Made by a program: the position numbers and the translations under genes. Positions 28,056 to 39,991 of a DNA stretch of 64,000 nucleotides are shown here, in pieces. Position 1 is the stretch's first letter. Every line of letters starts with the position of its first letter. The DNA is from Fodinibius sediminis (GTDB lineage: Bacteria; Bacteroidota; Rhodothermia; Balneolales; Balneolaceae): positions 186,001 through 250,000 of the forward strand of contig NZ_FXTH01000005.1 of NCBI RefSeq assembly GCF_900182555.1, in the 5' to 3' direction. The notes below the pieces were generated by a model. The model ran no database searches. It was not told the origin of the DNA and saw nothing but the letters and a program-made list of their open reading frames with translations.

Positions 28056-30464
28056 CTATACCAAGGCTCTTTTTTGAGCATCCTTCATCATCATACTATG
28101 GAAATTCCGTTCTTTATTTCCGGCTTTGGGCGTGCGGAGCCTGTAAGAGCCGTCCGACTGCATTTCCCAGGCCAGGCGGTTGTCTTCAAGGGCCTTTTGA
28201 AGGATATAGGCAATACGGTTTTTTAATTCGGGCAGGGTAATGGGGATCAGGGCTTCTACGCGTTCATTGAGGTTCCGATAGCGCCAGTCGCCGCTGCCAA
28301 TATAGATTTTAGGCTCCCCGTCATTGCCAAAGTAGTAGATCCGGTCGTGCTCCAGGAATCGCCCGATAATGCTGATAAGCCGGATATTGTCGCTGTAGCC
28401 GGGCAGCTGTGGACGAATACGGGCATGTCCCCGGACAATCAGATCTATTGTAACACCGGCCCTGGAAGCCTGGTATAGCTTTTGGATAATCTCCACGTCG
28501 TCCAGGGCATTCATTTTAGCGATAATACGACCGTTGCCGCCAGAACGGGCAATGGCAATTTCTTTTTCGATGAGGGCATAGAACCCTTTTCGCAAATCGT
28601 TTGGAGCAACCAATAGCTTGCGGTACTGCTGGTCGGGAGCATAGCCGGTGAGGTAATGAAAGAGATTGGTGATGTCATAGCCGATGTCAGGATCACTGGT
28701 CAGGATGCCGAGGTCTGTGTAAACCTCGGCTGTTTGGATATGGTAATTGCCGGTCCCGATATGACAGTAGGTGGCATACTCATCGCCTTCGCGCCGCACG
28801 ATGAGGGCAACTTTGGCGTGGGTCTTGAGTCCTACCAGTCCATAGGCTACATGCACACCGGCATTTTCAAGCATTTTTCCCCATTCAATGTTGCTGGCTT
28901 CGTCAAATCGCGCTTTGACTTCTACAAGTACGGCTACCTGTTTTCCTTTTTCGGCAGCGCGAATCAGCGCTTTCACAATTGGAGAGTTTTCGGAGGTGCG
29001 GTACAGGGTTTGCTTGATGGCCAGTACATCGGGGTCATCAGCTGCTTCCTCGATAAGGCGGCGGACACTGGCGGAGAAAGACTCATAGGGATGATGGACC
29101 AGAATATCGCCTTTTCTGATGATATCAAAGATTGTTTGTTCAGCTTCAGTCTCACCCTCATGATGAAGGGGTTCCGGCACTACGGGATTCCACTTTTCGT
29201 AGCGAAGCCCGGGCAGATTCTTATCAGCAATGGGATGGAGCCCTGTTAGATCCAGTAACCCCTCCACTTTCACAATATCATTGGACTCCAGTTTCAGCTC
29301 ATTTTTCAGCAGGTTGAGGACCTCGGAGTCAACGTTTTCTTCAATTTCCATGCGTACGATTTCAGCAAACCGTCGTTCGCGGAGTTCTTCTGAAATTAGG
29401 GAGAGCAGGTCTTCGGCTTCTTCTTCATTGCGTCGTAGGTCGGCATTGCGCGTAATGCGAAACATACAGGTGCTTTCAATCTGCATGCCGGGAAAAAGCT
29501 TGTGGGCATTCCGGCGGATGATTTCCTCGATAGGGACATACTGAAATGCCGCTTGTGAGCTCTCTACGGGAAACCATCGCTGTTGATTGGATGGTATCTT
29601 CAGCCGTGCAAAATTAAAGGCATCCCGTTCTGGCTTTTTGAGCTTGATAGCCAGAGACAGGCTCAGGTTTGAAATAAAGGGAAAAGGATGACCGGGATCC
29701 ACGGCCAGGGGGGTGAGGGTTGGATATATATGGTCATCAAAATAGTTGTTCAGCTTCTGCTGCTGCTGTTTACTGAGCGTATCATAGGTTGCGACTTTGA
29801 GAGAGGCTTCTTTCTCCAATGCCGCCTGCAGGCTGTGGTTCCACACTTCAGATATCTTCTGCTGCATGATGGTAGTCTGTTGCTGAACCAGCTGAAGCTG
29901 TCTTACAGGAGTACGGCCGTCCGGGCTCAAGCCATAGACTCCCGCTGCTTCCTGGCGTTTGAGCCCGCCTACTCGTTTTTGGATAAATTCATCGAGGTTA
30001 CCTGACGCAATGGCAACAAAGCGGACTTTTTCAAGCAGGGGGGTGCGTGGGTCTATAGCCTGGTAGAGAACCCGCCAGTTAAAGTCAAGCCAGCCCAGTT
30101 CCTGGTTGAGGTAGAGGGCCGGATGATCGAGCGGGGCGTGGTCCGGAATATCCTGGGCCCGAACGGCATGGGGAAGCATGGACGGTTCCGGAACGTGGGG
30201 GTGCCGGCTGTCATTGGTACCGTTATCCTTTATGGTCCAGGCCTGCTCGTCCACATTCCAGAAGATGGATGAATCCTTTAATTTTCTGAAGACTTTTTTA
30301 ATCGGTTCAGAAAATGTACGGCTTCCCTTGGAATTGAGCTTGATGTATTCGCTGCCAAAGTGGGTTTCAATCCCCGCAACGGCTTCGGAGCGGTTCAGCT
30401 TCCTTTTCGTTTTAATTTCATTGATCAGCCAGACAGCAATTTTCTGGGGAGTAGGTTCAGTCAC
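28056..30464 (-). CDS. ppk1: Polyphosphate kinase 1 with N-terminal winged-helix-like extension
   Basis: 802 aa, whereas PPK1 is usually about 690-720. The PPK part (about 115-802) polymerises the gamma-phosphate of ATP into polyphosphate; the phospho-accepting His is H568 in YCHIGTGNYH, with a second His in GHARIRPQL. The first 80 or so residues (IAVWLINEIKTK, AVAGIETHFG, W-VDEQAWTI) resemble the small DUF6953 family, which looks like a winged helix. I did not expect this fusion, and it could let PPK bind nucleic acid or a partner. It converges with the DUF420 gene and is not in an operon with a polyphosphatase. Confidence 0.93.
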   Translation of the reverse strand: MTEPTPQKIAVWLINEIKTKRKLNRSEAVAGIETHFGSEYIKLNSKGSRTFSEPIKKVFRKLKDSSIFWNVDEQAWTIKDNGTNDSRHPHVPEPSMLPHAVRAQDIPDHAPLDHPALYLNQELGWLDFNWRVLYQAIDPRTPLLEKVRFVAIASGNLDEFIQKRVGGLKRQEAAGVYGLSPDGRTPVRQLQLVQQQTTIMQQKISEVWNHSLQAALEKEASLKVATYDTLSKQQQQKLNNYFDDHIYPTLTPLAVDPGHPFPFISNLSLSLAIKLKKPERDAFNFARLKIPSNQQRWFPVESSQAAFQYVPIEEIIRRNAHKLFPGMQIESTCMFRITRNADLRRNEEEAEDLLSLISEELRERRFAEIVRMEIEENVDSEVLNLLKNELKLESNDIVKVEGLLDLTGLHPIADKNLPGLRYEKWNPVVPEPLHHEGETEAEQTIFDIIRKGDILVHHPYESFSASVRRLIEEAADDPDVLAIKQTLYRTSENSPIVKALIRAAEKGKQVAVLVEVKARFDEASNIEWGKMLENAGVHVAYGLVGLKTHAKVALIVRREGDEYATYCHIGTGNYHIQTAEVYTDLGILTSDPDIGYDITNLFHYLTGYAPDQQYRKLLVAPNDLRKGFYALIEKEIAIARSGGNGRIIAKMNALDDVEIIQKLYQASRAGVTIDLIVRGHARIRPQLPGYSDNIRLISIIGRFLEHDRIYYFGNDGEPKIYIGSGDWRYRNLNERVEALIPITLPELKNRIAYILQKALEDNRLAWEMQSDGSYRLRTPKAGNKERNFHSMMMKDAQKRALV

Positions 30465-31555: not shown

Positions 31556-32896
31556 ATGAAAAAAACGAGTCTTTCAGGACGCATACGTAAAGATTTTTTT
31601 GACATCAGGCGGCATGAGTGGCCCACAGCACTGCTTATGTCCACCTTTTTTTTTATGGTCATTGCCACGTTCTGGATTCTGAAGCCAATGAAGCGGGGAC
31701 TGCTGGTCGGTTATTATCAGAGCGCTCCTCTCCAGCTGCTGGGAACTACCTTCAGCGGGGCCGAAGTAGAGCAGCTTGCCAAGGTCCTGAACATGATTGT
31801 CGTATATGGAGTGGTTGTGCTCTTTACTGTGCTCGCCCGAAAGTTTTCGCGCCAGAATATGAATCTCATTCTGTGTCTATTGTTCAGCGGACTTTTTGTT
31901 CTTTTTGCCAATCTGTTGCAAGCCCCTACTGCAGGCACGAGCTGGTCGTTCTATATACTGGGGGATATGTTTAATTCAGCGCTCCTCACTTTTTTCTGGG
32001 CTTTTTCAAACGATATTTTTACCTCAGACCAGGCCAAACGGACATACGGTATTGTCGGTCTCGGAGGCATTATCGGGGGGATTGTTGGTTCAACGGTTGT
32101 TGCCGGCTTTGTAGGGGAATGGGGTCGTTCTACATTGCTCTACCTCTGCCTTGTTCCCATGGCTGCGATGATAGTGATAGGCTATATTGTTGATGCCCGA
32201 GAGGAGGAAACCAACGGTGATGAGGATGACGGCTGTGGTGGAGAAAAAAAATGCAATGCAGTTTTTGAAGGTGCCCGGCTGGTCTTCAATTCCAGATACC
32301 TTTTGGCTATTGTCGGGTTGATCGGACTGTATGAGGTTGTTTCCAATATCGTGGATTTTCAGCTTTCTGCAACCATTGCAAGCCAGGTAGCGGGTGATCT
32401 GAACAAGGATGTCTATTTTGGTTATGTGGGGCAGGTTACCAGTTTGGTATCTCTGCTGGTTCAGCTGCTGTTAACCAGTTTTATTATGAAACGGTACGGG
32501 GTTGGGATTGCATTGCTTTTTTTACCTGTGGCCATTACACTGGGAACGATAGGATTCCTCTTTATTCCCAGCCTTTTGTTTGCAACCATCATGTCTGCCA
32601 GTGACAACAGTCTGAACTATTCCATAAACCAGTCGGCCAAAGAAGCCCTGTATACCCCAACCAGCAAGCATGTCAAGTACAAAGCGAAGGCGTTTATTGA
32701 TATGTTTGTTCAGCGGTCGGCCAAAGTACTGGCTGTAGCTCTGAACCTCACTGTCGCTGCCTTTGTCGGGATTTCCAATGTGCGATGGCTCTCAGTGGTA
32801 AGCCTGGTTATCCTGGTATTCTGGATACTCATTGTGCGTTATGCCGGCCTAGAATTTAAAGAACGTGCCTCTAGTGAAGAAATAACTGTCGGCTAA
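31556..32896 (+). CDS. NTT-like (ATP/ADP translocase family) membrane carrier
   Basis: 446 aa with about twelve helices. It resembles the NTT/Npt1 nucleotide transporter family of the major facilitator type, with an N-terminal DIRRHEWPTALLM and LKPMKRGL (the LKP-x-R motif near helix 1 is shared with its neighbour) and SDNSLNYSINQSAKEALYTP before the last third. Free-living bacteria carry NTT-like proteins for which no ATP exchange has been shown. A cysteine-rich loop (about 223-237) is unusual. It is the first gene of a plus-strand cluster; the second carrier starts 72 nt later. The transported substrate is unknown. Confidence 0.8.
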   Translation: MKKTSLSGRIRKDFFDIRRHEWPTALLMSTFFFMVIATFWILKPMKRGLLVGYYQSAPLQLLGTTFSGAEVEQLAKVLNMIVVYGVVVLFTVLARKFSRQNMNLILCLLFSGLFVLFANLLQAPTAGTSWSFYILGDMFNSALLTFFWAFSNDIFTSDQAKRTYGIVGLGGIIGGIVGSTVVAGFVGEWGRSTLLYLCLVPMAAMIVIGYIVDAREEETNGDEDDGCGGEKKCNAVFEGARLVFNSRYLLAIVGLIGLYEVVSNIVDFQLSATIASQVAGDLNKDVYFGYVGQVTSLVSLLVQLLLTSFIMKRYGVGIALLFLPVAITLGTIGFLFIPSLLFATIMSASDNSLNYSINQSAKEALYTPTSKHVKYKAKAFIDMFVQRSAKVLAVALNLTVAAFVGISNVRWLSVVSLVILVFWILIVRYAGLEFKERASSEEITVG

Positions 32897-32968
32897 CCAG
32901 ATACTCATGACCCTGATGATCGGAATAAATCTTCCTAAGCTCACGATAAAGGTCTGGGGTGGGATACG

Positions 32969-35722
32969 GTGAAAAAAGCTATTGCGTATTTTTATGATGT
33001 GAGACAGGGTGAATGGAGCTCCGTGGGCTTGATGTTTTTTCTTCACTTCACGCTGATGTTGACCCTGTACCTGCTCAAGCCGGCTCGTGACAGCTTGTTT
33101 CTGTCTGAACTGGGTCCCCGTCAGCTCCCTTTTGTGTACCTTCTGCTGGCCGGTGTCGCCATACCTGTCACCCTCTACATCTCCCGGATGGCCCAAAAGT
33201 ACAATACCAAACAGCTGCTAGAGCTATCCCTCCTGTTCTATATGGGCAATTTGCTGGTTCTCCGGCTGCTATTCAGTCTCCATACGCAATGGGTTTATCT
33301 GCTGTTTTATATCTGGGTAGGCATCTTCGGAATCCTTGTCATTTCCCAGTTCTGGTTGTATGCAAATGCTTTATTCGATGCGGCCCAGTCGAAACGCCTG
33401 TTTCCTCTTTTGAATTTGGGGGCCATAACGGGAGCTATAGCTGGCAGTGAGGGCGGGAGCCTTCTGGTTTGGCTGGCCGGCTTAACGACCGAGAATCTGC
33501 TTTATCTGAGTATCGGAGCACTCGGTATCTGCTGGATTCTGGCCAATAATACCCGGCCGGCTTTTCCGGACAGGGAAAAAGCTACCGGCGAGAACGAGCA
33601 GGAGATCGATTCCGGGCGCAAAGTGTTGAAAAGCGTGTTTAAATCACGATACCAGCTGCTTGTAGCGGGCATCATCGGCATGGCGATGCTGGTAAGCACC
33701 CTGGTTGACTATCAGTTTAAAACACTGGCTACAGCTTCTTTCCCGGATACGGAAGCACTCACTACTTTTATGGGTAGTTTCTACGGGGGCATGAGTATCG
33801 CATCGCTGCTGGTCCAGGTATTGCTTTCCACACAAATTATTAAACGCACGGGGATTGGAGGTGCGGTTTTGTCACGGCCCATCGGACTGCTAGTCGGCGG
33901 AATTCTTTTTCTCCTTGAACCTGTCCTGGCTGCGGCTGTACTCTTGCAGGGGGTTGATCGGGCCAGCCGCTATTCAATAGATAAAACCGGGCGAGAGCTG
34001 TTGTTCCTTCCGCTGCCTCAGGAAACCAAGCAAAAAACCAAGGTCTTTATTGATACCTTTGTCAACAGGTTTTTCAGGGGGATGGCCGGGGTACTGCTTC
34101 TGCTTTTTATCTACGTCATGGAATTAACCCTGCGGCAAATGACCTATGCCGTAATCATTGCGCTCGGCATCTGGATTGTACTGGGATTATGGGCAAGAAA
34201 GGCCTATGTAGAGCAGTTTCGGAATTCCCTGCGCAAGCGGTATATGGATATTGACAAGATTACCCTGAACCTGGACGAAAGCGTTGCTTACAGGGCGGTC
34301 CGGGAGATGCTGAAAAGCGGAGAAGAAACCCGTATCGTATACGGTCTTGGTTTGCTGGAGGGCAGCCAGCCGGAACGGCTGAGCGAGGAGCTGGGAGAAC
34401 TGCTGACACACCGCTACAGTGAAATACGACTCAGGGCTCTGAAACTTTTGTCGAAGGTCGAGTCGGACGACATGTCATCTGAGGTCGAGCCCATGCTGCA
34501 GGATCCAGAGCCCAGTATACGGCTCGAAGCCGTGTATTACCTGTGCGGACACAGTAAGAAGAATTCAAAAGATGCACTGCGGTACTATCTGGAGAATGAG
34601 GATGAGACCCTGAAAGCGGCCGCCCTGGGCTGCATGCATCAGCATGGCATGGATAACGGCTTGAAGACGGAAGAGGAATTCATAGACAAGGTATTATCCG
34701 CCAAAGAACAGTATTCCGTTGTGGTACGGGCCCAGATTGCTCAAATGCTTGGTTATCTCCCCAAGACGTCTAAATCACTTGGTTACTTGTCCGAACTTAT
34801 TCATGATGATGATCCCCTTGTTGTTCGCAAAGCATTGACAAGTATTGAAAGGCTGCAGAGCGATCTTCTTTTGGATGAGCTGTTTGAGCTGTTAAAGCAT
34901 CCCGACTTCGTAGTAGAAGTACAGCAGGTACTGGCATCCTACGGATCCGGTTATTTTTCACTGTTCAAGGAAAAATTTTGCGAGCAAACAGTTGATTTTG
35001 ATGTACGGAGAAAAGTCCCGGGTATTTTTACAAAGATCCATACCCAGCAATCTGCGGATGCGCTGTTTGATATGCTGGAACAGCCCAACCCTGCCCTTCG
35101 TTATCATGTTATCAAGGCGTTGAATAAGTTGAAAAAGAAGGCTGACGGCCTTGGTTTCAACGAACAGCGCATTCGCGGGGTTCTGAAGGAGGAAGCCTGT
35201 GAATATTTTAAATTACTTTCGATTAAAATGGTTCAGCCTGCCGACAGGCCTCAGGCTATTTTACTGACAGCGCTGAAAGAGAAGATGGAGCAGACCAGGG
35301 AACGACTGTTTCGCCTGGCGGCACTGTTGCACAACCAGCAGGATATTTATGGTTCCTACCTGGCACTGACGAGCAGCGACAGGGCGGCCCGGGCTGCCTC
35401 TATTGAGTTTATGGATAATATTTTAGCACAGGAGGAAAAAAAATATATCTTTCCTGTCATTGACAGTCCCTCCGAACAGAGCATGCTGCAGGCCGGGCGC
35501 CGTCTTTTTCACTTGCCTGTTGCTACCTACGAGGAGGGGATGATGGAATTGCTTACCGGGAATGACATCTGGCTTAAGGCATGTGCTATCTACAGCGTGT
35601 CTCCATCGTGCCCCCGGCCGCTTCAGGAAGAAGTGCGCCAGTCAATTGCGGCTGATGCTTCTTCCCATCCGCTTATCAGGGAAACAGCTGAATATGTAAT
35701 TAACCGAAACTGGAAAGCTTAG
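32969..35722 (+). CDS. NTT-like carrier fused to a C-terminal HEAT-repeat domain
   Basis: 917 aa from a GTG start. Residues 1 to about 415 form a twelve-helix NTT/MFS-like domain that parallels the preceding protein (DVRQGEWSS, LLKPARDSLF, RYSIDKTGRELLFLPLP). Residues about 435-917 form a long helical-repeat domain of HEAT type, for example HRYSEIRLRALKLLSKV, PEPSIRLEAVYYL and DDPLVVRKALTSIERL. The repeats are predicted to lie in the cytoplasm as a scaffold. NTT-like proteins with HEAT tails are known in free-living bacteria without a settled role. A cyclic-nucleotide-binding-domain gene begins 2 nt after the stop, so the two products probably work together. Confidence 0.82.
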   Translation: MKKAIAYFYDVRQGEWSSVGLMFFLHFTLMLTLYLLKPARDSLFLSELGPRQLPFVYLLLAGVAIPVTLYISRMAQKYNTKQLLELSLLFYMGNLLVLRLLFSLHTQWVYLLFYIWVGIFGILVISQFWLYANALFDAAQSKRLFPLLNLGAITGAIAGSEGGSLLVWLAGLTTENLLYLSIGALGICWILANNTRPAFPDREKATGENEQEIDSGRKVLKSVFKSRYQLLVAGIIGMAMLVSTLVDYQFKTLATASFPDTEALTTFMGSFYGGMSIASLLVQVLLSTQIIKRTGIGGAVLSRPIGLLVGGILFLLEPVLAAAVLLQGVDRASRYSIDKTGRELLFLPLPQETKQKTKVFIDTFVNRFFRGMAGVLLLLFIYVMELTLRQMTYAVIIALGIWIVLGLWARKAYVEQFRNSLRKRYMDIDKITLNLDESVAYRAVREMLKSGEETRIVYGLGLLEGSQPERLSEELGELLTHRYSEIRLRALKLLSKVESDDMSSEVEPMLQDPEPSIRLEAVYYLCGHSKKNSKDALRYYLENEDETLKAAALGCMHQHGMDNGLKTEEEFIDKVLSAKEQYSVVVRAQIAQMLGYLPKTSKSLGYLSELIHDDDPLVVRKALTSIERLQSDLLLDELFELLKHPDFVVEVQQVLASYGSGYFSLFKEKFCEQTVDFDVRRKVPGIFTKIHTQQSADALFDMLEQPNPALRYHVIKALNKLKKKADGLGFNEQRIRGVLKEEACEYFKLLSIKMVQPADRPQAILLTALKEKMEQTRERLFRLAALLHNQQDIYGSYLALTSSDRAARAASIEFMDNILAQEEKKYIFPVIDSPSEQSMLQAGRRLFHLPVATYEEGMMELLTGNDIWLKACAIYSVSPSCPRPLQEEVRQSIAADASSHPLIRETAEYVINRNWKA

Positions 35723-35724
35723 TT

Positions 35725-36156
35725 ATGGAAACGACCATAGAGAAAGTCATTTATCTCCAGCGAATTGAGATGTTTGCGGATATCCCCACGGAACAGCTTG
35801 CTCATGTCGCGGGTATCGCCTGGGGTGTTCGCTTTGATGCCGGTGAGGTCATCTATTCCGAAGGTGATCCGTCGGATGCTCTTTATCTGCTCGTTGACGG
35901 GGATATAAAAGTAACGCGAGAAGGAAAGGTGACACGTAAAATTGAGGTCGGGGAAGCATTCGGGATCTGGGGTTTTTTTGACCGCAACCCCAGATTGTTT
36001 ACAAGCGAGGTGCTCAAAGAGAGTTATCTGCTAAAGATACAAAGCGATGACTTCTACGACCTGATTGAGGACCGGGTGCGTCTGAGCAGGGGGCTGATTA
36101 AATATCTGGTTGGTAAAATACGTCAGCTGATCGAAGAAACAGATATCCTCATATAG
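35725..36156 (+). CDS. Cyclic nucleotide-binding domain protein (stand-alone cNMP domain)
   Basis: 143 aa: a CAP-type beta-roll and little else. Recognisable are IPTEQLAHVAG, AGEVIYSEGDPSDALYLLVDGDIKV and the phosphate-binding cassette region GEAFGIWGFFDRNPRLF. The cassette keeps the G-E pair and an Arg, but the residues after the Arg differ from the usual R-S-A, so the ligand may not be cAMP. No DNA-binding domain is present, so it is not a CRP-type regulator. Start codon 2 nt after the HEAT-fused carrier: likely a ligand-sensing subunit of it. Confidence 0.85.
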   Translation: METTIEKVIYLQRIEMFADIPTEQLAHVAGIAWGVRFDAGEVIYSEGDPSDALYLLVDGDIKVTREGKVTRKIEVGEAFGIWGFFDRNPRLFTSEVLKESYLLKIQSDDFYDLIEDRVRLSRGLIKYLVGKIRQLIEETDILI

Positions 36157-36202
36157 GATGGAACGCTCTGGTCAAATCTATTGTCACTAATTAATTATAG
36201 AA

Positions 36203-39200
36203 ATGACCCCAACCGTATCGTTTATGATGAATGACAGAAATGCATTAACCATGGGCAGGAGCTTATTTCTTGCAGCTGTTCTCATGATGCTGCAGGCCTG
36301 CAATGCCTCCCGGCCGTTCTATAAGTCGCCTGTTGAGGATTACCGGGCAGCTCCCGAAAAAGATGTTGAGTACTCGCTGTTCCTGATCGGTGACGTGGGG
36401 GAACCCGAGCAGCCGAGAGCTGCGGATGTGCTGCAGACCCTGCAATATCAGCTGCTGCAGGCAAGCGACAGCAGCTCGGTTGTCTTTCTAGGGGATAATA
36501 TCTACCCGGATGGGCTGCCCCCGGACCCCCGGCATAAGGAACGTATCTCCTCTGAAAATAAACTGAAACCGGCTCTGGATATATTGAATAATTACCGGGG
36601 ACAGGCCTATTTTTTGCCGGGCAATCATGATTGGTGGGGCTACGGCATTGAAGGGCTGCGCGCCCAGGAAGATTTTGTTGAGAACTTTGGCTCTGCAAGG
36701 GTTGAATTTACTCCAGATGAGGGGTGTCCCGGACCAAGTGGGTTCACGCTGGGCAAGAACTGGTACATGGTTGTTTTAGACTCGGAATGGTGGATCAACC
36801 AGAGTTTAGAACTGGGACCTGCTGCAGATAGCTGCGGGCAGCAGAGCCGGGCCGAAGTCATTGACCAGACGGCCACCCTGATTGATGCCAATGCTGACAA
36901 ACACATCCTGGTTGCTTTTCACCATCCTCTGTACAGCAATGGCAGCCACGGGGGCTTTTATCCGTTGCGTGATCACCTTTTCCCCCTGACGAATGTTGTT
37001 GATAATCTCTATGTACCGCTTCCGATTGTGGGATCACTTTATCCGCTCAGTCGCAAGCTGGGCCTGTCGCGCCAGGATATTCCCAACAGGCAGTACCAGG
37101 CGTTTAAGCAGGAAATTTTGGAAGCCGCCGAAGATGTCGAAAATGTATTTTTTGCCAGTGGACATGATCATCAGCTGGCTTTTTACATCAAGGACAAGCC
37201 AACGGCGGACAAGGAAGGACAGGATTTTTTTATCCTGAGCGGCTCGGGAAGCAAGAATTCTTATGCGCGGGGACGAAATGGGGCTGAGTTCGTCTATTCC
37301 CGCCGCGGTTTTGCCAAGCTCCTTACGTACAAGGACGGATCCGTGGCCGTAGAATTCTGGGTGCCCGAAGAAAACAATCAGGAAGGACGATTGGTTTACA
37401 GAAAAGAACTCATTGAACCCCAGCGAGGTACCGACTTCCCGGCTGGTCCTTCGGGAGCACAGCCTGACTCTGAAAGTCAGATGGATTCTACTGTGACCAT
37501 TGCCGCAGGGCCACTTTACGAGGCTGGGGATGCCAAGCGTTTTATTTGGGGCGACCACTATCGGGATGCATGGACTACGCCTGTCGAGGTACCAGTCCTC
37601 AACTTTCAAACTGAAAAGGGGGGACTGGAAGTCTTGGCCAGGACGGGAGGGGTACAGACAGTTACCATCATTGCTGAAGATCCGACGGGCCGCAGGTATG
37701 TCATGCGGTCGGTACAGAAGGATCCGAAACGATCATTGCCGGAAATTCTACAGGAAACCTTTATTACAGACATTGCACAGGATCAGACCTCGGCTACACA
37801 TCCCTACGGCAGCATGGTGGCATCATCACTGGCCTCCGCTGCGGGAGTCTACCACACTACCCCGGAGTTGAGGTATATCCCCGGCCACACCGGGTTTGAC
37901 ATTGAGGCGGGCGACAGGAACGGAACCCTCGTCACCGTGGAGGAATTTGTGAGTAAGGAATGGTTTAACCAAACCTATGGCAGGAATGCCGTGGACATGG
38001 TGGGCTCCCACGAACTCTGGGGGAGGCTGCGGGCAGGAAGTTCAGCTACCATTGATGAGCGGCAGCTGGTGCGTTCCCGTATTTTTGATATGTTCATCGG
38101 CGACTGGGATCGTCATGAAAAACAGTGGTTTTGGGCAGAAACAACCACCGATTCGACAGCTGCATACCAGCCGATCCCCATTGACCGTGATAATGCATTT
38201 TATAAAAGTGACGGGGTTATCCTGGGACTGGCCCGGTTGTGGGCCTTCCCCAAGTTTCAATATTTTGGCGAGGACATACAAAATATCAAAGGCATCAATC
38301 TGAATGCCCAGTATTTTGACCGCTGGTTCATCAACAAGCTGGACCGACAGGAGTGGATCGGTATTGCCCGACAGATGCAGGAAGCACTCACAGATTCGGT
38401 GATAACACAGTCGGTTGAGCAGTGGCCCGATCCTATTGCTGAGCTCAATGGTCCGACCTTTGTAAGAAAACTCAAGGCACGAAGAGACAAGCTTACCGAC
38501 TTTGCACGACGGTATTATGACCTGCTCATCCGGCAGATAAATGTCTTTGGCAGTGATGAACCAGAAGAGTTCATGGTTGAACATCTGCCGCAGGGAGAAA
38601 CCCTCGTAAGCCTGTATCGACAAGAGGAGGGTAAGTCACGGCAGTTAGTATATTATCGAAAAATAAAAGCAGCGGAAACCAGCGAGGTGCGACTGTATGG
38701 ATTTGGCGGAGAGGATCGTTTTGAGGTAAGCGGACAAGGGGGGCAGGTGAAGGTCCGGATCATTGGAGGCGATGGAAAGGATGTCATTGCAGACAGCTCG
38801 GAGCCGGCAGGATCGGCTAAGCGAACCTGGGTATATGATACAAAAGCGGGCAGTCTGATTGAAACAGAGAAGTCGGTCAAGAATAAAACCTCCTCAACAC
38901 CGCGGGTGAACCGGTATGACAAGCGGGGGTTTCAGTACAATTTTACTGGTCCTTTGTTCACAACGGGCTACAATGACAATGACGGGCTCTTCCTGGGGGG
39001 CGGCGTGCTCATAAGAAGGCAGGGGTTTCGAAAAAAACCCTTTGCCTCGCGACATCGTATCCGGGCGAAGACAGCCATGCGAACAACCGCTTTCAGCGTA
39101 AGCTATGATGGTATCTTCACAGATGTCGTGGGGCCCTACAATATTGAAATCGATGCCGAGGTACTGGCCCCCAATTATTCAGCCAATTATTTTGGGCAGG

Positions 39201-39991
39201 GCAATGAGACGGAAAAAGAGAGCGACAACGATACGTTCTACGGCTACCGGATGGATACCATTGATTTCGGAATTGGTCTTTCCAACGAAATTGTCGAGCT
39301 ATTGACAATTCGTACAGCATTCGGATTAGAATATTACCGGCCTTTTGAGATGGAAACCCGATTTGTGGCTTCCGAGGACGCAGGACTGGCCAATTCCGTT
39401 TTTAATGCACACTATCTTGCTACGGTTGGTGCCGGTTTTACCATCAACACGGTGGATAGCGAAATCTTTCCCAGATACGGAATGGTATTGGATTTCAGCT
39501 ATGACTGGAAGATCGGGTTGAACGATCGCAGCGACACTTATGGGCGCATCAGCTCGGAAGGCACCATCTATTATACCTTCGAAGAAATTACTACAACCCT
39601 CGCCTCACGGATTGGTTTTTCTACCAATATCGGCAGCTATCAGTTTTTCGAGGCCAATACGCTGGGGGGACAATCATTTTCAGGCGAAACCAACAATCTG
39701 CGGGGTTTTCTGCGGGACCGCTTTTCGGGGCGCTCAGCGATTTTTCATAATACCGAACTCCGGACTAAGCTGCTGAATATCCAGTCGTATGTTCTGCCTG
39801 CGACCATGGGTATTTTAGCTTATGTAGATGAAGGGCGGGTATGGTTCAATGATGAACATTCAAGGAAATGGCATGTCAATTATGGTGGAGGGCTCTGGAT
39901 TAGTCCCCTGAACAGAATAGTATTAACGGGTGGACTTGCTTTTTCCAAAGAGGAAACCCTGCTGACCCTGACACTCGGCTTCCCGTTTTAG
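36203..39991 (+). CDS. Giant lipoprotein: metallophosphoesterase + kinase-like segment + outer-membrane barrel
   Basis: 1262 aa. Starts at 36203, 36227 or 36251 are possible; all precede a lipobox (LQAC, C33). Residues about 55-400 are a calcineurin-like metallophosphoesterase with all metal motifs: LIGDVGEP, LGDNIYPDG, GNHDWWG, HHPLYSNG and SGHDH. Residues about 440-800 are not phosphoesterase: FIGDWDRHEKQW (D634-H638) and PIDRDNAF (D661-N664) look like the catalytic loop and metal loop of Fam20C/HipA/PI-kinase-like enzymes, with YVMRSVQK (499-506) a candidate ATP-Lys strand. Residues about 930-1262 are beta-strand rich and end in Phe, as a BamA/TamA-like barrel does. It is 46 nt after the cNMP gene. 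Confidence 0.8.
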   Translation: MTPTVSFMMNDRNALTMGRSLFLAAVLMMLQACNASRPFYKSPVEDYRAAPEKDVEYSLFLIGDVGEPEQPRAADVLQTLQYQLLQASDSSSVVFLGDNIYPDGLPPDPRHKERISSENKLKPALDILNNYRGQAYFLPGNHDWWGYGIEGLRAQEDFVENFGSARVEFTPDEGCPGPSGFTLGKNWYMVVLDSEWWINQSLELGPAADSCGQQSRAEVIDQTATLIDANADKHILVAFHHPLYSNGSHGGFYPLRDHLFPLTNVVDNLYVPLPIVGSLYPLSRKLGLSRQDIPNRQYQAFKQEILEAAEDVENVFFASGHDHQLAFYIKDKPTADKEGQDFFILSGSGSKNSYARGRNGAEFVYSRRGFAKLLTYKDGSVAVEFWVPEENNQEGRLVYRKELIEPQRGTDFPAGPSGAQPDSESQMDSTVTIAAGPLYEAGDAKRFIWGDHYRDAWTTPVEVPVLNFQTEKGGLEVLARTGGVQTVTIIAEDPTGRRYVMRSVQKDPKRSLPEILQETFITDIAQDQTSATHPYGSMVASSLASAAGVYHTTPELRYIPGHTGFDIEAGDRNGTLVTVEEFVSKEWFNQTYGRNAVDMVGSHELWGRLRAGSSATIDERQLVRSRIFDMFIGDWDRHEKQWFWAETTTDSTAAYQPIPIDRDNAFYKSDGVILGLARLWAFPKFQYFGEDIQNIKGINLNAQYFDRWFINKLDRQEWIGIARQMQEALTDSVITQSVEQWPDPIAELNGPTFVRKLKARRDKLTDFARRYYDLLIRQINVFGSDEPEEFMVEHLPQGETLVSLYRQEEGKSRQLVYYRKIKAAETSEVRLYGFGGEDRFEVSGQGGQVKVRIIGGDGKDVIADSSEPAGSAKRTWVYDTKAGSLIETEKSVKNKTSSTPRVNRYDKRGFQYNFTGPLFTTGYNDNDGLFLGGGVLIRRQGFRKKPFASRHRIRAKTAMRTTAFSVSYDGIFTDVVGPYNIEIDAEVLAPNYSANYFGQGNETEKESDNDTFYGYRMDTIDFGIGLSNEIVELLTIRTAFGLEYYRPFEMETRFVASEDAGLANSVFNAHYLATVGAGFTINTVDSEIFPRYGMVLDFSYDWKIGLNDRSDTYGRISSEGTIYYTFEEITTTLASRIGFSTNIGSYQFFEANTLGGQSFSGETNNLRGFLRDRFSGRSAIFHNTELRTKLLNIQSYVLPATMGILAYVDEGRVWFNDEHSRKWHVNYGGGLWISPLNRIVLTGGLAFSKEETLLTLTLGFPF

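Follow-up and report, generated by a model that had tools for sequence, protein, structure and literature searches.

How would a kinase domain at the outer membrane of a bacterium obtain its phosphate donor? According to the prevailing view, no ATP is present in the bacterial periplasm, and an outer-membrane kinase therefore raises the question of its donor. This question is posed by four genes in a stretch of 64,000 nucleotides from Fodinibius sediminis (contig NZ_FXTH01000005.1, positions 186,001 to 250,000), referred to as the window in the following, which corresponds to C5:186001-250000 of genome G000 (4.43 Mb) in our numbering. The initial annotation had described a cluster of four codirectional genes with gaps of 72, 2 and 46 nt, and these open reading frames (ORFs) are indeed present on the plus strand between positions 31556 and 39991. 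Gene 1 (31556..32896) encodes a stand-alone NTT carrier (TLC, PF03219) of 446 aa, gene 2 (32969..35722, GTG start) an NTT-HEAT carrier of 917 aa, and gene 3 (35725..36156) a stand-alone protein of 143 aa with a cyclic-nucleotide-binding domain (cNBD). Gene 4 (36203..39991) encodes a protein of 1262 aa, termed MPP-KIN-OMP, which combines a lipobox, a phosphoesterase domain predicted to be of the purple-acid type, a predicted kinase domain and an Omp85-type barrel. Our results support that these four genes belong to a module recurring in related genomes, and we are confident in assigning the middle of gene 4, from its predicted structure, to the kinase fold of PI4KII, CotH, CtkA and HipA.

Clustering of the carriers with barrel and kinase-like genes

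Profiles of the individual parts of the cluster were used to score all ORFs of the window and of 62 further loci; the NTT loci considered here exclude the weakest rows of the NTT match list. An NTT domain was found in 57 loci, with carriers of the window type in 25 and other carriers in 32. Twenty-four loci were assigned to the window type by their position in the tree; the remaining one (L232), a stand-alone NTT of family f12 outside the tree, was assigned by score and host. A barrel/kinase-like unit is clustered with the carrier in 21 of the 25 window-type loci, compared to none of the 32 others. The 25 loci come from 19 genomes of three families (f1, f12 and f19) and are not independent. 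No unit was found at L069, L208, L227 (truncated by a contig end) and L232. The division into the two types was drawn after the neighbours had been seen, and the 32 others include two long-branch sisters of the single-NTT clade (L213 and L214); if these are counted as window-type, the linkage becomes 21 of 27.

The unit occurs in two forms. The first is KIN-OMP, the kinase domain joined to the barrel as in gene 4, which is present in six of the 21 clustered loci (the window, L057, L070, L072, L073 and L226), two of them also containing the lipoprotein F2. The second is a split form, in which an Omp85-type barrel protein (F3, ~430 aa) and F2 (~560 aa) are encoded beside an NTT or NTT-HEAT gene, and to which some loci add a stand-alone phosphoesterase.

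F2 carries the motifs NDxDRRxxN and DFG/DMG. In a phylum-wide sample of 395 genomes, its profile has matches in 14. A close copy (E < 1e-200) is present in 12 genomes and lies beside an NTT or NTT-HEAT gene in 11 of them, the exception being G021, with an NTT-HEAT of another clade. In the other two genomes (G252 and G393), all copies are divergent and lack the NDTDRR motif; such divergent copies (L119, L120, L122-L124) may be pseudo-enzymes. Homology of F2 to the kinase domain of gene 4 could not be established (hhalign P of 0.0036, 0.015 with larger alignments and 0.6 in global mode). In a single low-threshold alignment, NDTDRR is matched to GDWDRH and YLIKF to YVMRS with their order preserved, which is suggestive only. 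No Pfam match was found in F2, profile searches of the PDB returned designed Armadillo repeats and a methyltransferase (E of 0.86), and a scan of viral contigs for F2 found no relative.

The two carriers of the window are paralogues, as the initial annotation had proposed. Both match PF03219 (E of 2.4e-22 for gene 1 and 1.6e-23 for gene 2; 79.8 and 83.7 bits versus a Pfam cut-off of 21), both contain the motifs D-[IV]-R-x-x-EW and LKP, and they are 28% identical over 416 columns. In gene 2, the NTT domain (residues ~1-430) is followed by the expected HEAT repeats (residues ~431-917; HEAT_2, E of 1.3e-21), and gene 3 is a bare cNBD protein (PF00027, E of 8.6e-16, 58.1 bits versus a cut-off of 27.5). 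Gene 1 can be aligned with two solved ADP/ATP carriers (E of ~1e-12). Judged by eye, it has Lys at two key positions and Asp replacing Glu at two others. Gene 2 carries Arg instead of one Lys, and at one acidic position, occupied by Asp in gene 1 and by Glu in the solved carriers, it has Gly; we take these positions to be important, as in plant NTT1. In the tree, gene 1 is one of 11 single NTTs from families f1, f12 and f19 that form a supported clade, and gene 2 falls within an NTT-HEAT clade of six (window, G013, G004, G106, G101 and G079) with a support of 100/100.

In all six members of this NTT-HEAT clade, a cNBD gene follows directly downstream after 1-19 nt, and a phosphoesterase is encoded, either as a separate gene or as a domain; KIN-OMP is present in five of the six, broken over several ORFs in G101. 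The idea that homologues might never be adjacent in related genomes, which would have spoken against the cluster, is thus untrue in view of the 21 clustered loci. The conserved order of the four genes, which the initial annotation had proposed to look for, holds only in part: the module recurs, but the exact order NTT, NTT-HEAT, cNBD, MPP-KIN-OMP was found only in the window and in G013, which has two copies of MPP-KIN-OMP. At the other loci, parts are split or genes are missing relative to this order. For example, in G079 (L226) the phosphoesterase and KIN-OMP are encoded by two genes with a 4-nt overlap, and at the site syntenic to the window G007 has an NTT and MPP-KIN-OMP and G011 an NTT without either partner. 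No flanking family is common to the window, G013, G106 and G101 (ORFs of at least 90 aa, regions up to 20 kb); G004 shares one family with G101 and one with the C12 locus of G007, and G101 one with G001. Scans for promoter-like sites (8 found versus 10.9 in shuffles) and terminator-like sites (10 versus 9.8) remained at chance level, and the four-gene operon is therefore proposed from spacing and conservation alone.

Some further loci deserve mention. MPP-KIN-OMP in G101 (L073:6865-10649) and an NTT in G008 (L063:3653-5153) are each split over overlapping ORFs in a frameshift-like manner. The genome of the window contains a second NTT-HEAT gene (G000:C4:194167-200131; L061:6164-12128) together with split F3 and F2, and no cNBD or phosphoesterase match was found in the 20-kb region analysed. 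Members of another NTT-HEAT clade (L067, L068, L216, L218-L220) recurrently lie beside a gene pair on the opposite strand, encoding proteins of ~415-440 and 970-985 aa.

The domains of gene 4

The phosphoesterase, kinase-like and barrel parts described for gene 4 were all recovered, the first and the last by Pfam (Metallophos PF00149, E of 3.8e-6; Omp85 PF01103, E of 6.8e-13) and the middle by structure prediction. For the latter, residues 421-900 were folded with AF2 together with 49 homologues from named genomes (49 of the 80 named loci discussed below), which resulted in a model with a pLDDT of 88.8 and a pTM of 0.90. The kinase fold spans residues ~461-776 (37583..38530). The best Foldseek matches of this model were Helicobacter pylori CtkA (E of 1.5e-6), PI4KIIalpha (2.2e-6), CotH (1.7e-5) and HipA (2.5e-5). 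In VIA-align, which speaks for the families in its comparison list, PI4KIIbeta (Z of 15.6, root-mean-square deviation of 4.7, 258 residues aligned) and CotH (15.5, 4.2 and 255, respectively) tied for the first place, followed by CtkA (Z of 13.9) and HipA (Z of 11.2). At the sequence level the relationship is faint: identity to these four families is ~9-14% in alignments, a profile search of PDB sequences gave CtkA as the sole match with a weak E of 0.081, and no Pfam kinase family was among the matches of eight members up to an E of 1.

The putative active site is strongly conserved. R502, K506, D527, E580, D634, R637, D661 and D663 are present in all 50 rows of the alignment and D636 in 45, and the signature stretches read D634-x-D636-R637 and D661-R-D663. 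Conservation at residues 628-645 is partly selected, because patterns covering that stretch had served to find the loci; K506, D527, E580, D661 and D663 lie outside of it. The candidates for the nucleotide-binding Lys, the catalytic Asp and the metal-binding Asp were placed by sequence instead of by superposition of active sites.

The phosphoesterase domain (residues ~57-405; 36371..37417) is, according to its motifs and predicted structure, of the purple-acid type. Purple acid phosphatases are characterized by five motif blocks, D / GDxxY / GNH(D/E) / VxxH / GHxH, the Tyr after GDN being their mark. All five blocks were found in the window protein (D64, GDNIY at 97-101, GNHD at 140-143, VAFHH at 237-241 and GHDH at 320-323). 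In an alignment of 31 rows, the metal-ligand residues are each kept in 27-30 rows and the Tyr in 29. A model of the phosphoesterase and kinase domains together (31 rows; pLDDT 84.1, pTM 0.59), read one domain at a time, has pig purple acid phosphatase as its best structure match (7ov2/1ute, E of 4.6e-14). The C-terminal barrel covers residues ~905-1262 (38915..39988; Pfam match at 991-1252), and the Pfam scan of gene 4 returned no POTRA match.

Possible functions of the cluster

At somewhat less than even confidence, we tentatively propose that the cluster is an envelope phosphorylation module, in which phosphorylation in the periplasm would be fuelled by a nucleotide supplied through the NTT carriers. 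These carriers, placed in the inner membrane, would move a nucleotide phosphoryl donor between cytoplasm and periplasm, most likely ATP against ADP, and the HEAT scaffold of gene 2 and its partner, the cNBD-fold protein, might act as regulators. The donor would feed the kinase domain anchored at the outer membrane, which may phosphorylate a periplasmic or outer-membrane substrate, and the phosphoesterase on the same polypeptide could take the phosphate off or clean up nucleotides. Barrel and lipid anchor would keep this presumed pair of enzymes at the outer membrane.

A number of observations weigh against this proposal. Twelve of the 21 clustered loci contain the split form only, and F2 appears kinase-like by its motifs alone. 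Both carriers score far below the cut-off of the NTP/NDP exchange transporter group TIGR00769 (73.1 and 62.4 bits versus 387.2) and thus appear related to this group rather than members of it. A strict lipobox pattern is found in the window protein, but in just 19 of 52 full-length named homologues. Within the cluster neighbourhoods, it is present in four of eight fused proteins (including that of the window), neither of two KIN-OMP ORFs, 8/9 stand-alone phosphoesterases, 17/20 F2 and 2/18 F3 ORFs; several of the misses are truncated ORFs or have the Cys slightly outside the pattern.

The regulatory part is affected as well. The canonical cyclic-nucleotide cassette contains a Glu and an Arg. 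In gene 3 the Glu is replaced by Ile and the Arg (Arg90) is kept. Among close copies, six of six have I, V or A in place of the Glu and retain the Arg (five taken from the alignment, L226 read by eye); the distant copy L223 keeps the Glu. Classical cAMP binding by gene 3 is therefore doubtful, canonical cAMP sensing is unsupported, and of the two suggestions of the initial annotation, that the module senses a nucleotide and that it might move or process a phosphorylated substrate, the first is weakened.

Finally, the kinase-barrel protein mostly occurs without an NTT. The kinase-domain profile matches 145 of the 395 sampled phylum genomes, and most open frames among the matches listed are ~1240 aa or 850-960 aa long, some ~550 aa. 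Among the named kinase-barrel loci, which are the best 80 of 574 and some of whose flanks are cut by contig ends, none shows matches to NTTs, to this cNBD or to F2 in its flanks. We therefore rejected a general partnership between the kinase-barrel protein and NTTs; the NTT may have been added in this lineage specifically, or elsewhere another donor or external ATP may be used.

A rather unlikely alternative to the proposed phosphorylation module is scavenging: the outer-membrane phosphatase would strip phosphate from nucleotides or organic phosphates, the NTTs would import nucleotides or phosphate esters, and the kinase would be regulatory or act on the imported product. The purple-acid type of the phosphatase agrees with such a role, and so does the frequent vicinity of polyphosphate kinase 1 (PPK1), which in the window is encoded outside the operon on the minus strand (28056..30464). 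PPK1 was found near 27 of the 80 named loci. Both PPK1 and MPP-KIN-OMP are present in 10 of 12 family genomes searched for PPK1; they lie within ~11 kb of each other in five of these ten (G000 with the window, G007, G059, G072 and G016), while the distance is 177 kb in G029, and in G013, G101, G106 and G021 the two genes sit on separate contigs. However, scavenging has no need of the conserved putative kinase active site, and the split loci of families f12 and f19 (L206, L207, L209-L212) contain barrel, F2 and NTT with no phosphoesterase match in the 20-kb regions analysed.

We regard it as unlikely that the cluster modifies lipids or glycans, with the headgroup of a lipid, or a glycan, being phosphorylated by the PI4KII-like domain, the phosphatase reversing this step and the NTT-like carriers moving a lipid or sugar-phosphate precursor instead of a nucleotide. 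The top VIA-align match is a lipid kinase, albeit tied with CotH; gene 4 combines lipobox and barrel; and the Gly and Arg substitutions in gene 2 affect presumably important carrier positions. But likeness in fold is silent on the substrate, and CtkA, CotH and HipA, which have the same fold, are protein kinases.

Even less probable is a link to polyphosphate, in which the outer-membrane protein would use polyphosphate made by PPK1 as its phosphate donor or substrate, and the link to the NTTs would be secondary in this lineage. Besides the 27 named loci mentioned above, the window-syntenic site fits this idea: G007 has both PPK1 and MPP-KIN-OMP there, and G011 has neither, its PPK1 being located on another contig. 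On the other hand, no PPK1 was seen in the flanks of 53 of the 80 named loci. Where present, PPK1 is on the opposite strand in 18 of 27 cases, often 1-2 kb downstream, and the two genes therefore do not form one operon; their vicinity may reflect old synteny. That envelope genes were kept together by descent without any joint function would fit the many loci from one family and an exact gene order limited to the window and G013, but is very improbable in view of the linkage counts (21/25 versus 0/32 loci), the presence in three families, the differences between the flanks, the gene overlap, and both fusion and fission.

Apart from PPK1, which ranks second, the commonest recurrent neighbour of MPP-KIN-OMP is an ORF family found near 44 of the 80 named loci; the single member scanned contains HD and PycTM (Pycsar effector-like) domains. 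The PPK1 of the window has an N-terminal DUF6953 domain. In three relatives that lack the connection to NTTs, a member of a cyclase-like TPR family comes after MPP-KIN-OMP (L074:10257-12215, L075:5405-7372 and L076:12612-14570); the domains of this family were scanned in L074 only.

Relation to known systems

The initial annotation knew of no description of this combination of genes. The pair formed by genes 2 and 3 is not new, since NTT-HEAT proteins of free-living hosts, some with a cNBD gene several nucleotides downstream, have been described together with the proposal of an operon, their functions being called unknown (Major, Embley & Williams 2017, PMC5381601). Such proteins are recognized by HEAT repeats of PF13646 or PF02985 behind the NTT domain and by a cNBD gene close downstream; gene 2 agrees with both, its cNBD gene lying at a distance of 2 nt. 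Unlike here, no link to an outer-membrane kinase and phosphatase is made in the main text of that paper, in which the terms 'outer membrane', 'kinase', 'phosphoesterase' and 'Omp85' do not occur. Likewise, the pairing of phosphoesterase and barrel is not new, because a 'Metallo' subfamily of Omp85 proteins that joins PF00149, there called a metalloprotease, to the barrel has been reported (Heinz & Lithgow 2014, PMC4104836). Gene 4 matches this subfamily in domain content; it differs from that account, whose main text does not contain the word 'kinase', by a phosphoesterase predicted to be of the purple-acid type and by the kinase domain that follows.

Neither the kinase-barrel protein nor its link to NTTs was found described among the titles and abstract starts listed from the open-licence PMC literature, and 'kinase' and 'metallophos' do not occur in the available text of PMC12045153, PMC12611786 and PMC12578637. 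What is new, as far as this literature goes, is the kinase domain of gene 4, which joins two described kinds of protein, its fold, and the clustering of carrier and unit. The recurring cluster with ATP/ADP-type carriers makes the donor question testable, and it offers a role for the NTT-HEAT proteins.

With an enzyme fused to an Omp85-type barrel, gene 4 is also similar to the patatin-like protein PlpD (as presented in PMC4104836). In PlpD a POTRA domain is present and the enzyme is a patatin lipase, which is released to the outside, whereas gene 4 has no POTRA match and carries other enzymes. Gene 4 shares the predicted fold with PI4KII, CotH, CtkA and HipA, and its conserved Lys, DxDR and DxD residues are candidates for the corresponding sites of these kinases, but in contrast to them its kinase domain is flanked by the predicted phosphatase on one side and the outer-membrane barrel on the other, and has no Pfam match. 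The cluster suggests a bacterial route to phosphorylation outside the cytoplasm. In its widest form, which we consider somewhat unlikely, it would represent a dedicated periplasmic system, in which ATP/ADP-type carriers supply an outer-membrane kinase paired with an opposing phosphatase and whose kinase-barrel family is spread phylum-wide and unannotated, and thus a counterpart of the eukaryotic secretory-pathway kinases and their lumenal ATP supply.

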